Of a DNA stretch of 64,000 bases, positions 14,476 to 54,719 are shown in pieces. The notes below the pieces were generated by a model that did not search any database, was not told the DNA's origin, and saw only the letters and a list, made by a program, of their open reading frames with translations. Origin of the DNA: Lysinibacillus parviboronicapiens (GTDB lineage: Bacteria; Bacillota; Bacilli; Bacillales_A; Planococcaceae). Position 1 is the stretch's first letter. Each line of letters opens with the position of its first letter. The translations under genes and the position numbers were made by a program. Location of the stretch: the NCBI RefSeq assembly GCF_003049575.1, contig NZ_PYWI01000010.1:1-64000 (forward strand), read 5' to 3'.

Positions 14476-14493
14476 ATTTATTTGTGTAAAAGC

Positions 14494-14533
14494 ACCGTGG
14501 TTCGTAACCATCCCACGAAAAAAAACTAAGGAG
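14494..14533 (+). promoter_or_regulatory. preQ1 class I riboswitch
   Basis: P1 is CGTGG (14496-14500) with CCACG (14513-14517). Its loop reads TTCGTAACCATC, close to the conserved preQ1-I loop, and is followed by an A-rich linker and ACTAAGGAG (14525-14533). In this class the 3' tail pairs with the loop when preQ1 binds. Here the tail contains the AAGGAG ribosome binding site of queT, so control is probably translational. Confidence 0.85.
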
Positions 14534-14543
14534 AAATGAATAG

Positions 14544-15026
14544 ATGAAAGTAAAATTTTTAGCAGCAAGTGGTATTATTGCCGCGTTATACATTGCGGTT
14601 ACTATGCTAGTGGCACCGTTTGGATTTACTGAAGTGCAATTCCGAGTATCGGAAATGTTTAATCATTTAGTTGCCTTTAATCCGCGCTTTGCCGTAGGGA
14701 TTATTATTGGTGTGTTTATCTCTAATTTATTTTCACCACTTGGCATTTACGATTTAGTTTTTGGTGTTGGACATTCAATGATTACTTTAGGACTGTTCAT
14801 ACTGATTTGTAAATTTGTAAAAAATATTTGGGCACGCTTAATCATCAACACGCTGTTATTTACATGTACAATGTTCATTATCGCCTTTGAATTGAACTTA
14901 GCCTTAGAATTACCATTTTTCTGGACATGGATAACTGTCGCTGCAGGTGAATTTGTCGTACTAGCAGTCGGTGCACCGATTATGTATATACTGAACAAGC
15001 GTCTAAATTTCAAAGATTTGATATAA
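14544..15026 (+). CDS. queT: QueT-type queuosine precursor transporter
   Basis: The 160-residue membrane protein (about five segments) matches the QueT family, the presumed substrate-binding (S) component of an ECF transporter for preQ1 or queuosine precursors. Signature blocks are EVQFRVSEMFNHL (residues 31-43) and VGIIIGVFISNLFSPLG. The upstream preQ1-I riboswitch confirms the metabolic role, since queuosine precursors would repress it. The shared ECF ATPases are expected elsewhere in the genome. The gene is monocistronic. Confidence 0.92.
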   Translation: MKVKFLAASGIIAALYIAVTMLVAPFGFTEVQFRVSEMFNHLVAFNPRFAVGIIIGVFISNLFSPLGIYDLVFGVGHSMITLGLFILICKFVKNIWARLIINTLLFTCTMFIIAFELNLALELPFFWTWITVAAGEFVVLAVGAPIMYILNKRLNFKDLI

Positions 15027-15128: not shown

Positions 15129-15157
15129 TTGACACTATTCTGAAAATACCTTAAAAT
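15129..15157 (+). promoter_or_regulatory. Sigma-A promoter of the trpB leader
   Basis: TTGACA (15129-15134), 17-bp spacer, TAAAAT (15152-15157), close to consensus. The predicted start near 15164 means that both the repeat-type element at 15169-15319 and the T-box are transcribed. Confidence 0.75.
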
Positions 15158-15168
15158 TCATTTCAATA

Positions 15169-15319
15169 ATAAAGTGAAACTTTAATCAGTGAAGGTGATC
15201 TTCACGCCATCCTGATTATTAGTAGCACCAATCGGGCTTTTACAGGCAGTAATCTCCCGCCTAAAATTTTTCTCAGAATTTTAAAGTGGAAGTCATACTG
15301 CTCGTTCAAGCGGGATAAA
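15169..15319 (+). repeat. Structured repeat element in the 5' part of the trpB leader
   Basis: The element starts ATAAAGTGAAACT and forms a first hairpin from AATCAG / CTGATT with an inner GTGAAG / CTTCAC. It continues TAGTAGCACCAATCGGG, forms a second long-range hairpin (GCAGTA / TACTGC and GCTT / AAGC) and ends CGGGATAAA. The same conserved blocks and two-hairpin layout occur in the tandem units at 52404-52647. It is not part of the T-box, which begins downstream of about 15320. Confidence 0.6.
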
Positions 15320-15542
15320 TGCTAGGAAGAAGAAGAGTAGCAAGACACTGTATTTGAAGAGAGCTGATGGTCGGTGCAAATCAGTAGTACATACTTGTGA
15401 ATGGACTTCGGAGCAGCCGCATTAAATATGTGGACGAACTAACTCCCCGTTATAGGAGTCCCAAAAGCGCGCAATTTTTGCGAATAAAGGTGGCACCACG
15501 GTTACTCGTCCTTTTACTGAAAGGATTGAAGTGACTTTTTTT
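15320..15542 (+). promoter_or_regulatory. T-box riboswitch, tryptophan specific
   Basis: The leader contains the stem I region GAGAGCTGATGG and a specifier loop GTGAATGGAC with UGG (Trp) at 15402-15404. The T-box sequence AAAGGTGGCACCACGG is at 15486-15501. The terminator GTTACT..TCCTTT / AAAGGA..AGTGAC with a T-run is at 15501-15541. Uncharged tRNA-Trp would stabilise the antiterminator and switch on trpB. Confidence 0.92.
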
Positions 15543-51569: not shown

Positions 51570-52382
51570 TTAGTTAGCTCCTTCCAAGCCTAATGTTGCT
51601 AGTTTTACGAACACATACTCGTTATAGTTTTCCTGTTGCTGTAATTGAACTGCTGTATAACCTTGCGCAAATAATTTTTGTATCAATCGACGTGTTTTCA
51701 AGCGCCAATCCAATGCCAAAGCTGGGTCTTGTATCTTTAGTGTTTGAAAACCCTTCGGTACTGGTAATGTGTATATGTTATTATTAAAAATAGAATTTTC
51801 TGATATTTTTAGATAAGGTAAGTCTTGCTCATTGAATATACAGTTTGCTACATTTACCGCTGTAGTTGCATCGATGGCAACATCATGCACTACATAGTCA
51901 GATGTTAAGTACCAACTGACCTCCAATCGATCAGATGGTAAACCTTTATTTAAGCTATCCTGCATTTCACCGTAGCAATTTTCTATATATGTGTGGCAAA
52001 TACCATTTAACTTTGATAGATTGAGATAACCGTTTCGTGTTTCAAGCGGGTCAAACGTCCACACCATTAAATCATAGCCGCGCTCAATAGCAATGACTTG
52101 CTGGGCTTGCTTTAATGATTCGCCAATTCCTTGCGAACGATAATTTTTATCGATACCTAACATATGAGAACATAAATAACTTTTACCCTCTCGAAAACCG
52201 GCAAATCCGTAGCTAAAACCAACTATTTTGTCACCATCATAAGCTCCAACTACGATACCACCGTTTTTCACTGCTGTTAATGTTTGATGAATTGGAATTG
52301 GTGGCATACTCCACACGTTATATTCAAGTTGTTGTACCTGTTCCAGTTGTTCGATTGTTTTTACTTCACGAATATCAATCAT
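51570..52382 (-). CDS. GNAT family N-acyltransferase
   Basis: The 270-residue protein has an N-terminal GNAT domain. The acetyl-CoA loop is in [17 protein letters not shown] (Q-x-x-G-x-G type) near residue 80-96, and [21 protein letters not shown] forms the preceding strands. In the known D-to-L conversion pathway a GNAT enzyme succinylates or acetylates a D-amino acid before racemisation. The start at 52382 has a weak SD and lies about 25 nt after the end of the tandem structured repeat. Confidence 0.82.
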
Positions 52383-52403: not shown

Positions 52404-52647
52404 CTTTTATCCCGTACCAACAGGAGCTAAATTCTCTTAGGCTAATTAAGCTCCTGTATGTACCCGATTGGTTCAACTATTAAAGCGATGGCGTGGAAGA
52501 TTCCACCGCTTCAGTTTCACTTTATCCCGTACCAACAGGAGCTAAATTCTCTTAGGCTAATTAAGCTCCTGTATGTACCCGATTGGTTCAATTATTAAAG
52601 CGATGGCGTGGAAGATTCCACCGCTTCAGTTTCACTTTATCCCGTAC
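52404..52647 (-). repeat. Two 115-bp tandem units plus partial third, structured
   Basis: Units 52406-52520 and 52521-52635 differ at one base (C/T near 52477); a partial third begins at 52636. On the minus strand each unit reads CGGGATAAAGTGAAACTG, hairpin AAGCG..GTGGAA / TTCCAC..CGCTT, then GAACCAATCGGG. A second hairpin with ACAGGAGCT / AGCTCCTGT and GTAC / GTAC follows, then the next CGGGATAAA. The same design occurs in the trpB leader. It lies immediately 5' of the GNAT gene, in sense orientation. Confidence 0.85.
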
Positions 52648-52716: not shown

Positions 52717-53832
52717 TTATAACGTACGTAGAATGGCTCTTGTGATGATAGCTACACCTGTTATGAGGCGTTCTTTATTAAACGTCATTTTCGGATGATG
52801 TAATCCTGGTGAAACACCACAACCAAGTCCAAGCATCGTGGCTTTAAGATGTGGTTTTTCATACGTATAAAAATGAAAGTCTTCGCCGCCTGGTGTAACA
52901 ACTGGTGGTACGCACGCTACGTCCCCGACCACATCAATAATTGCTGCGCGCATATGTTCCATTGCTTCATCATTCACTAACGCTGCAACAATATGTGCAT
53001 CCACCTGTAGCTCAATCTTTGCATTATACATGGCTTCCACAGATGCCTTTACACGTTCAATCCCTGCGGTTAACACGTGCATGACTTCATTCGTTTGTGC
53101 ACGTGCATCAATACTAAATGTTGCTTTTCCAGGGATAATATTTGCCGAAGTACCTCCTGCATTAAATTGTGTCATTTTAGCCGAAGCTGATACATTCGGA
53201 TCTGTCCAAATTTTTTGTAGACCCTCTACAATTGCTGCTCCTACTTCAATGGCGTTAATGCCAAGTTCAGGACGTGCACCATGTGCCTCTTCTCCAATAA
53301 TCGTACCCGTAAAAAGCTTCGCTGCCCCGTGATATAACGCAGGTGTATACGTTCCATCCTGTAATTCTTTAAGTGGACGAACATGAACGCCGAACAAATA
53401 ATTCAAGTCATCTATTACACCTTTATCAACTAAGGCACGAGCACCCTCTGCCTTTTCTTCAGCCGGCTGAAAAAGGATGCGCACTGCACCAGATAATGCT
53501 GGCTCCATATCCTTTAAAAGTAATGCCGTTCCAATAGCCATAGTCATATGGCCATCATGTCCACAAGAATGATTCGCTTTAAAAACACCATCAACTTCTT
53601 GCCAAAGCGCATCTATATCCGTTCGAAAGCCTACCTTCGGTGTTCCTTTTCCAATATCAACATAAAGCCCCGTCATATCGTCGAACATTTGTGGTTCCAT
53701 ATTGGCTTCCCTTAGTAAACTTGCAATGTATTGTGTCGTTTGCTGCTCCTGCCAACTAATTTCTGCATGCTCATGTAAATGCGAAAAAATTTCAGCCAAT
53801 TTTGGCTGCAAGCTTTGTAAAAACTCGTTCAT
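52717..53832 (-). CDS. M20 family amidohydrolase (N-acyl-amino-acid deacylase)
   Basis: The roughly 371-residue product starts at ATG 53832 (MNEFLQSLQ), with TGGAG nine bases upstream. ATG 53847 lies inside the RpiR gene. Metal motifs are NHSCGHDGHMTMAIG near residue 88 and FQPAEEKAEGARAL, with the C-terminal GGEDFHFY. In this operon it would release the L-amino acid from the N-acyl form produced by the racemase. It is a paralogue of the gene at 0.17-1.35 kb. Confidence 0.88.
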   Translation of the reverse strand: MNEFLQSLQPKLAEIFSHLHEHAEISWQEQQTTQYIASLLREANMEPQMFDDMTGLYVDIGKGTPKVGFRTDIDALWQEVDGVFKANHSCGHDGHMTMAIGTALLLKDMEPALSGAVRILFQPAEEKAEGARALVDKGVIDDLNYLFGVHVRPLKELQDGTYTPALYHGAAKLFTGTIIGEEAHGARPELGINAIEVGAAIVEGLQKIWTDPNVSASAKMTQFNAGGTSANIIPGKATFSIDARAQTNEVMHVLTAGIERVKASVEAMYNAKIELQVDAHIVAALVNDEAMEHMRAAIIDVVGDVACVPPVVTPGGEDFHFYTYEKPHLKATMLGLGCGVSPGLHHPKMTFNKERLITGVAIITRAILRTL

Positions 53833-53837
53833 CCTAT

Positions 53838-54719
53838 TCAACTCCATCGATTTGCAATAAAGCTATTTTGAAAATCATCATATTTTACGCGTTGACTTTC
53901 ATAAAACTCATGATCCTGTGCTGTCATACCTGCAATAAGCGTATTCAAAAATGAGATAAGTGCTGGCATAGCGTCAATTGTTGACATTTCTTGTTGCTCA
54001 TTTGCAAACGTAATTGTTGCATATTGCGCAATAGGTGCTACTGGGGAATCTGTTATACCAATAATCTCGCAATTTTTTGCTTGGATTTCTGCTGCTAATT
54101 GAATGGGCTCTTTAAAGTAGCGATGAAACGATAGAATAATAACTACAGAGTCCGCATCAATTTCTTGCAAAGCTCTTGCAATCTCGTTCGTTTCCAATCC
54201 AACGAGCACCACATTTGGCCGCAATAAATTCAGCGTGAAGTATAGCCATTTTGCAGCTAAATTTGAAGAACCGTAGCCAATAATGTAAATCTTCTTCTTC
54301 GTATGAAGTAACCTTGAAGCGCGATTAAAATCTTTATCATTAATATTTGCTGCAACACTTAAAATCCTTGTTGCATCTCTTTCCATTGTTTGCTCATAAA
54401 AACGTGGGTTTTCAAAAAGTTCTTGCTTTGATTCCAAATAATTTTGCAAACTACTACTATTGCCTTCATTGAATAAGTGTATCGTTACCTCACGCTGCAA
54501 TTGTGCATATCCTGATAATCCTATTGCATAACAAAAACGAATTACTGTCGTTTCGCTCACTCCTGCTTGCTCGCCAACATTTGTAGCTGAGTGCATGCCA
54601 ACATACTGCAAATTTTTAAGAACAAAGACCGCCACTTTTTGTTGGCTTTTTGAAAGTTTATGAAATTTTTCTTGAATGATATGTTGTATTGACCTATTAT
54701 CCAACAAATTGAAGTGCAC
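53838..54719 (-). CDS. RpiR/MurR family transcriptional regulator
   Basis: The 293-residue regulator has an N-terminal helix-turn-helix domain (about residues 1-77; ATNVGEQAGVSETTVIRFCYAIG split) and a SIS sugar-isomerase-type domain near 125-260 (KKIYIIGYGSSNLAAKW). SIS domains usually sense phosphosugars. The link to amino-acid genes suggests a cell-wall-derived or other ligand. It is first gene of the operon, overlapping the deacylase start region, and likely controls it. Confidence 0.9.
   Translation of the reverse strand: MHFNLLDNRSIQHIIQEKFHKLSKSQQKVAVFVLKNLQYVGMHSATNVGEQAGVSETTVIRFCYAIGLSGYAQLQREVTIHLFNEGNSSSLQNYLESKQELFENPRFYEQTMERDATRILSVAANINDKDFNRASRLLHTKKKIYIIGYGSSNLAAKWLYFTLNLLRPNVVLVGLETNEIARALQEIDADSVVIILSFHRYFKEPIQLAAEIQAKNCEIIGITDSPVAPIAQYATITFANEQQEMSTIDAMPALISFLNTLIAGMTAQDHEFYESQRVKYDDFQNSFIANRWS

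Follow-up and report, generated by a model that had tools for sequence, protein, structure and literature searches.

The bcr1 repeats, which belong to group A (bcr1-bcr3), are non-coding, MITE-like elements of about 100–400 bp that occur in dozens of copies in intergenic regions and whose mobility is tied to TTTAT repeats (PMC6542083, PMC3446304). In Streptococcus pneumoniae, one BOX element and T-box riboswitches together make up a composite RNA (PMC3049150), and Halalkalibacterium (Bacillus) halodurans carries Bhal-1, an intergenic stem-loop repeat of 74 bp present in 36 copies (PMC2267715). The pentanucleotide TTTAT is also the left-end motif of the solo-tnpB IS605 elements of Sulfolobus islandicus, whose right ends contain, close to the 3′ end, two inverted repeats (PMC10640517).

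The 64,000-nucleotide stretch of Lysinibacillus parviboronicapiens DNA analyzed here (hereafter the window) contains three copies of a repeat made of two hairpins (Table 1). As described in the first-pass annotation, two 115-bp units lie in tandem on the minus strand before the start of a GNAT acetyltransferase gene, and a single copy precedes the trpB T-box. The two tandem units differ by 1 nt. Like bcr1, this repeat is intergenic and MITE-like, carries TTTAT/ATAAA at both ends and is present or absent at orthologous loci. However, bcr1 has been reported only from the Bacillus cereus group, whereas the new repeat spans many other Bacillales genera; it is set apart by this host range from bcr1, with which it was compared by description only, and membership in bcr1 is not claimed. 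With BOX, it shares a modular and strongly folded structure, a variable number of tandem units, a small size, an intergenic location and the lack of a fixed gene context. BOX differs in having inverted repeats at its termini that resemble those of an insertion sequence, whereas the new repeat has none, its ends (GTGAAACT... and ...CGGG) not being complementary. This also separates it from classical MITEs, and no insertion sequence related to it was found. Palindromic units, tandem arrays, an intergenic location and a RAYT-like gene in the genome recall the REP/BIME repeats, but the RAYT gene is not flanked by the new repeat and does not co-occur with it, and the new repeat consists of two unlike hairpins rather than inverted copies of one. 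Hairpins near the ends, combined with a short T-rich target, are reminiscent of REP/RAYT or IS200/IS605 elements as well. Bhal-1 and the new repeat are both intergenic and folded, and Halalkalibacterium halodurans carries both; identity between them was rejected on copy number, 36 for Bhal-1 versus 5 matches of the covariance model of the new repeat in strain DSM 497, and Bhal-1 is probably another family.

Besides, none of the 4227 Rfam families matched the element at gathering score, so that the identity to a named Rfam family against which the first-pass annotation had cautioned was not observed. Rfam hits were limited to the T-boxes next to copies, to weak matches attributable to chance and, in one unusual copy, to an internal Bacillaceae-1 RNA. 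Absent from Rfam and from the descriptions found in the literature searched, the repeat appears to be unnamed; it is a real, structured, mobile and widespread family of a known general kind, i.e., a MITE-like structured repeat.

Table 1. Parts of the repeat copies and surrounding features, with their positions in the window.
Feature	Positions	Strand	Remarks
trpB promoter	15129..15157	+	TTGACA-17-TAAAAT; host sequence
trpB copy, whole	15169..15319	+	146 bp
trpB copy, left ATAAA (target)	15169..15173	+	
trpB copy, head GTGAAACT and hairpin 1	15174..15219	+	
trpB copy, conserved joint	15220..15236	+	
trpB copy, hairpin 2 and CGGG	15237..15314	+	
trpB copy, right ATAAA	15315..15319	+	in the uninterrupted state, first bases of the host T-box leader
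GNAT acetyltransferase gene	51570..52382	-	downstream of the array; PF00583; ATG at 52382; host gene, outside the element
GNAT array, last ATAAA	52406..52410	-	target or duplicated target
GNAT array, unit 2	52411..52525	-	115 bp, begins with ATAAA; covariance-model match 52463-52525, 57.1 bits
Unit 2, hairpin 2 and CGGG	52411..52462	-	closed by ATC-gg-GTAC / GTAC-gg-GAT
Unit 2, conserved joint TAGTTGAACCAATCGGG	52463..52479	-	
Unit 2, head GTGAAACT and hairpin 1	52480..52520	-	closed by GT-ga-AACT / AGTT-ga-AC
GNAT array, unit 1	52526..52640	-	115 bp, begins with ATAAA; covariance-model match 52578-52640, 52.5 bits
GTACGGG upstream of unit 1	52641..52647	-	direct sequence reading
M20 peptidase gene	52717..53847	-	upstream of the array; ATAAA on its stop codon is the insertion site in relatives

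Architecture and covariation of the two hairpins

The three window copies have in common the succession (G/A)ATAAAGTGAAACT - hairpin 1 - TA(G/A)T(T/A)G(A/C)ACCAATCGGG - hairpin 2 - CGGGATAAA. When the window was searched with the covariance model, exactly these three places were matched (E = 2e-14, 6e-13 and 1e-11); copies that served as seeds of the model necessarily match it. Folded as RNA, the three units are predicted to lie 4.5 to 5.4 standard deviations below dinucleotide shuffles. Hence, from both the E values and the fold z-scores, the similarity of the three copies is not due to chance. A complete copy reads ATAAA - GT(GA)AACT - stem 1 - AGTT(GA)AC - CA - ATC(GG)GC - stem 2 - GC(GG)GAT - AAA. 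It is thus made of two neighboring hairpins. Each of them is closed by way of a symmetric internal loop two bases long and fixed in sequence, GA/GA in one and GG/GG in the other. The closing helix is supported by a set of congeners that have Watson-Crick pairs in place of the GA/GA mismatches (GTGAA with TTCAC; alignment A2, columns 3/37 and 4/36, in 6 and 5 of the 46 sequences).

From the window alone, the first-pass annotation had noticed stems that change and still pair between conserved joining sequences. These changes were found to be compensatory across many genera, and the covariation that it had predicted is illustrated by 54 both-side changes in hairpin 1 (helix including the closing part) versus 9.2 in shuffles, and by 34 versus 9.1 in hairpin 2. 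The covariation scores were 0.239 versus 0.078 and 0.468 versus 0.157, respectively. As a control, the pairing partner was slid by 1–3 columns and the signal was lost in both stems. The pair-breaking changes amounted to 17 G-T versus 12 A-C in hairpin 1 and 23 G-T versus 24 A-C in hairpin 2. As no excess of G-T over A-C was observed, nothing suggests that single copies are maintained as one-strand RNA.

Simple copies measure 115–192 bp, and extra modules between the hairpins lead in some cases to elements of approximately 230 to 490 bp. No gene was seen between the element ends in 117 loci (0.92 Mb) with elements of up to about 490 bp, and an autonomous long version was rejected on this ground. 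In Bacillaceae bacterium Marseille-Q3522, elements of about 490 bp (L130:1891-2385 and L150:1763-2252) have additional hairpins inside them, along with several hairpin modules in tandem, a modularity resembling that of BOX. In one copy of Domibacillus mangrovi, a Bacillaceae-1 RNA (RF01690, 52 bits; L117:4019-4084) lies between hairpin 1 and hairpin 2, and this RNA may itself be a mobile module.

Host range, target site and placement

In its own genome, the repeat gave 58 matches at E ≤ 0.01 and 71 at E ≤ 1. Within the genus Lysinibacillus, 26 of the 32 genomes were positive, as were 148 of the 261 genomes sampled order-wide with one covariance model. At least 150 copies were found in Siminovitchia thermophila, 111 in Cytobacillus firmus and 63–78 in several other genomes. 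Another genome (G234) contains about 39 copies falling into two homogeneous subfamilies, which shows recent spread in that genome. The exact core pattern was present in Bacillus, Cytobacillus, Peribacillus, Neobacillus, Siminovitchia, Sporosarcina, Psychrobacillus, Domibacillus, Halalkalibacterium, Oceanobacillus, Virgibacillus and others. When 72,556 plasmids were searched, matches were restricted to Peribacillus, Pseudalkalibacillus, Cytobacillus, Niallia and one Klebsiella record, with none in Bacillus cereus-group plasmids. The hypothesis of a phage cargo was rejected, since no phage record matched. The Klebsiella record, a plasmid named Klebsiella grimontii (CP079755.1), contains one copy of this Bacillales repeat (L287:4001-4083), possibly as a result of misassignment or contamination.

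ATAAA, i.e., TTTAT on the other strand, was found at both ends of nearly all copies. At the left ends located outside arrays (n = 105), its bases were conserved at 88–96% each and the preceding 20 bases were not conserved, while the right flanks (n = 87) showed no motif beyond the ATAAA of the element end. A copy has ATAAA on both sides and an empty site has a single ATAAA; since the target is always ATAAA, a duplicated target looks the same as an ATAAA that the element brought along. Within arrays, a single ATAAA is common to neighboring units, and the number of units differs at orthologous arrays, with four units in genome G000 versus two in G028, three in G000 versus two in G028, four in G030 versus three in G023, and three in G010 versus one in G002.

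Order-wide, the 121 loci comprised 33 sense and 33 antisense copies in codirectional gaps, 21 copies in divergent gaps, 11 in convergent gaps and none within an ORF, the 23 remaining loci being unplaced at contig edges. In an alternative count, 10 of the 144 insertion sites were within an ORF, versus 72% of control ATAAA. Copies adjoin purA, asparagine-synthase-like, preT-preA and queF-queC genes, all named by reading translations. The claim that every copy stands in the sense 5′ leader of an amino-acid-related gene thus holds for the three window copies only and fails for the genome and the order, copies being found away from such genes and orientation being random order-wide. In Lysinibacillus alone, 18 sense versus 9 antisense copies were counted.

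For sense copies, ATAAA overlapped the stop codon (TAA) of the preceding gene in 23 of the 134 non-coding copies, versus 82 of the 1905 ATAAA sites that were available for insertion (odds ratio 4.6, p = 9e-8), an excess that is somewhat inflated because several of these copies are orthologous preT-preA copies. In six Lysinibacillus genomes with otherwise few copies (L028:1501-1566; L024, L031, L033, L034, L035), the repeat of the preT-preA gap lies on the preT stop codon. Similarly, a copy on the queF stop codon in the queF-queC gap is common to Lysinibacillus and another genus (L293, L294:1501-1563). Such copies, found at the same place in several species, could have a function, and the preT-preA copy is a candidate for domestication.

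Insertion history of the two window sites

The trpB copy, located between the trpB promoter and the trpB T-box (15315-15516, Rfam), begins 12 nt downstream of the -10 element, which places it inside the trpB leader RNA, and is joined directly to the T-box. In the congeners compared at this junction, the leader is uninterrupted (...AATAAATGC... / ...CAATAATAAATGC... or a close variant). They have kept both promoter and T-box, but lack the 146 bases of the window copy precisely from end to end. Judging from this comparison of sequences, the trpB copy is a recent insertion for which relatives keep a clean empty site. In the same part of the window, an ordinary PreQ1 riboswitch (14491-14535) lies directly before the QueT transporter gene (14544-15026).

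At the GNAT site, congeners G003, G008 and G011 have a plain ...GCATTATAAAGA..., whose ATAAA coincides in part with the M20 peptidase stop codon. A shrunken element was found exactly at this ATAAA in G001, and remnants of the element in G009, G028 and others; a clean empty site is thus found in some relatives only, the others having decayed remnants. From these plain sites, shrunken element and remnants, the GNAT array is seen to be an old, decaying occupant and not a conserved leader. The GTACGGG adjoining unit 1 is probably left over from the 3′ end of a third unit that has decayed. On the minus strand at positions 1-42 of the window, the start of a group II intron (RF02001) is cut by the window edge.

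Mobility of the repeat and rival explanations

The three copies very probably belong to a short non-autonomous mobile DNA repeat (MITE-like), scattered through Bacillales genomes, and do not form a dedicated switch of amino-acid genes. Indeed, insertion at ATAAA, with ATAAA left on both sides, intergenic dispersal, tandem arrays varying in unit number and compensatory upkeep of the hairpins were all observed here. The first-pass annotation had left the choice between a regulatory element and a mobile structured repeat. The second part of this proposal is borne out by the 58 matches, the occurrence of both orientations, the exact empty trpB site and the fixed 5-bp target, whereas the first, that the two leaders are regulatory, lacks support. 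On one strand, the mobile unit reads ATAAA - hairpin 1 - CA - hairpin 2 - ATAAA. A transposase or recombinase supplied in trans may recognize the folded hairpins on one DNA strand, including the conserved GA/GA and GG/GG internal loops, and cut at TTTAT. Arrays would grow via slippage or recombination, and most copies would afterwards be neutral passengers that decay. In the window, the trpB leader is interrupted by one copy that lies between its promoter and the T-box, whereas the space between the M20 peptidase and GNAT genes is occupied by an older, decaying array. Counting against a mobile repeat are the lack of association with Y1 transposases, the clean empty sites being shared by only some relatives at the GNAT locus, the copies found at one place in several species (preT-preA in six species, queF-queC in two genera) and the excess of sense insertions at stop codons.

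A cis-regulatory leader RNA of amino-acid-related genes, riboswitch-like or protein-binding, could be suspected from the sense-leader position of all three window copies (3/3), the strong fold (z -4.5 to -5.4), the strong covariation in both stems and the location of the trpB copy in a transcribed leader adjoining a T-box. It is nevertheless highly improbable in view of the equal numbers of sense and antisense copies order-wide, the occupation of divergent and convergent gaps, the variety of neighboring genes and the absence of the trpB copy from relatives. Moreover, the lack of G-T excess is expected of decaying DNA and not of one-strand-selected RNA, and no intrinsic terminator was found within or directly after the copies. 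A sense-leader regulator was therefore rejected on orientation and empty sites. A folded, covarying leader element looks like a riboswitch, and the present case illustrates that such an appearance can also be due to a mobile repeat; in screens of Bacillales leaders, candidates should be compared with this mobile two-hairpin repeat. A milder proposal is that copies of a mobile repeat are partly kept for mRNA stabilization or processing between cistrons, a domestication of the kind of BIME or BOX. The 4.6-fold excess of sense insertions at stop codons, the sense bias within Lysinibacillus and the preT-preA and queF-queC copies leave room for such local domestication. It is unlikely, however, given the even orientation order-wide, mismatches without wobble preference and the decay of the GNAT array in relatives; besides, the stop-codon excess may come from tolerated insertion or from the choice of target, as an insertion at ATAAA leaves the stop codon intact.

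Within the preferred explanation of a mobile repeat, a more specific version, in which an element derived from IS200/IS605 or of REP/RAYT type is moved in trans by a Y1 HUH transposase, is possible but somewhat doubtful. It is consistent with the T-rich end pentanucleotide shared with the Sulfolobus elements, the hairpins near both ends, the absence of inverted repeats and of any other flank requirement, and with RAYT-like genes, the nearest relatives of the one in the window's own genome being found in repeat-rich genomes (G009, G028, G234). However, the presence of Y1 transposases was not associated with the repeat across the 261 genomes (Fisher p 0.12 to 0.75 at all thresholds, for all Y1 or RAYT-like only, with copy counts above 20 per genome set to 20 and statistics that ignore kinship). 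No Y1 protein was matched in 11 genomes with at least 14 repeat copies, and repeat ends were not found beside Y1, RAYT-like, IS200-like or TnpB genes. These results lower the probability of the Y1 class, though the enzyme can vanish after a burst. A linked TnpB was rejected as mobilizer, TnpB loci being without shared ends. It is quite unlikely that the repeat is moved by a non-Y1 machinery that acts on a single strand in its folded form and favors sense insertion at stop codons, where ATAAA contains TAA, possibly in coupling with transcription or translation termination; if true, this would explain the success of the repeat in dozens of Bacillales genera without a linked gene. Owing to the wide occurrence of the repeat, the way in which bcr1-like TTTAT repeats move can be tested in many genera. 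RAYT-like genes present in a single copy are common across the order. The RAYT-like Y1 protein of the window's own genome is likewise encoded in single copy (L348:1817-2380; G000:C43:52319-52879, minus strand), and has its relatives, with 86–87% and 72% identity, in the repeat-rich genomes G028, G009 and G234.
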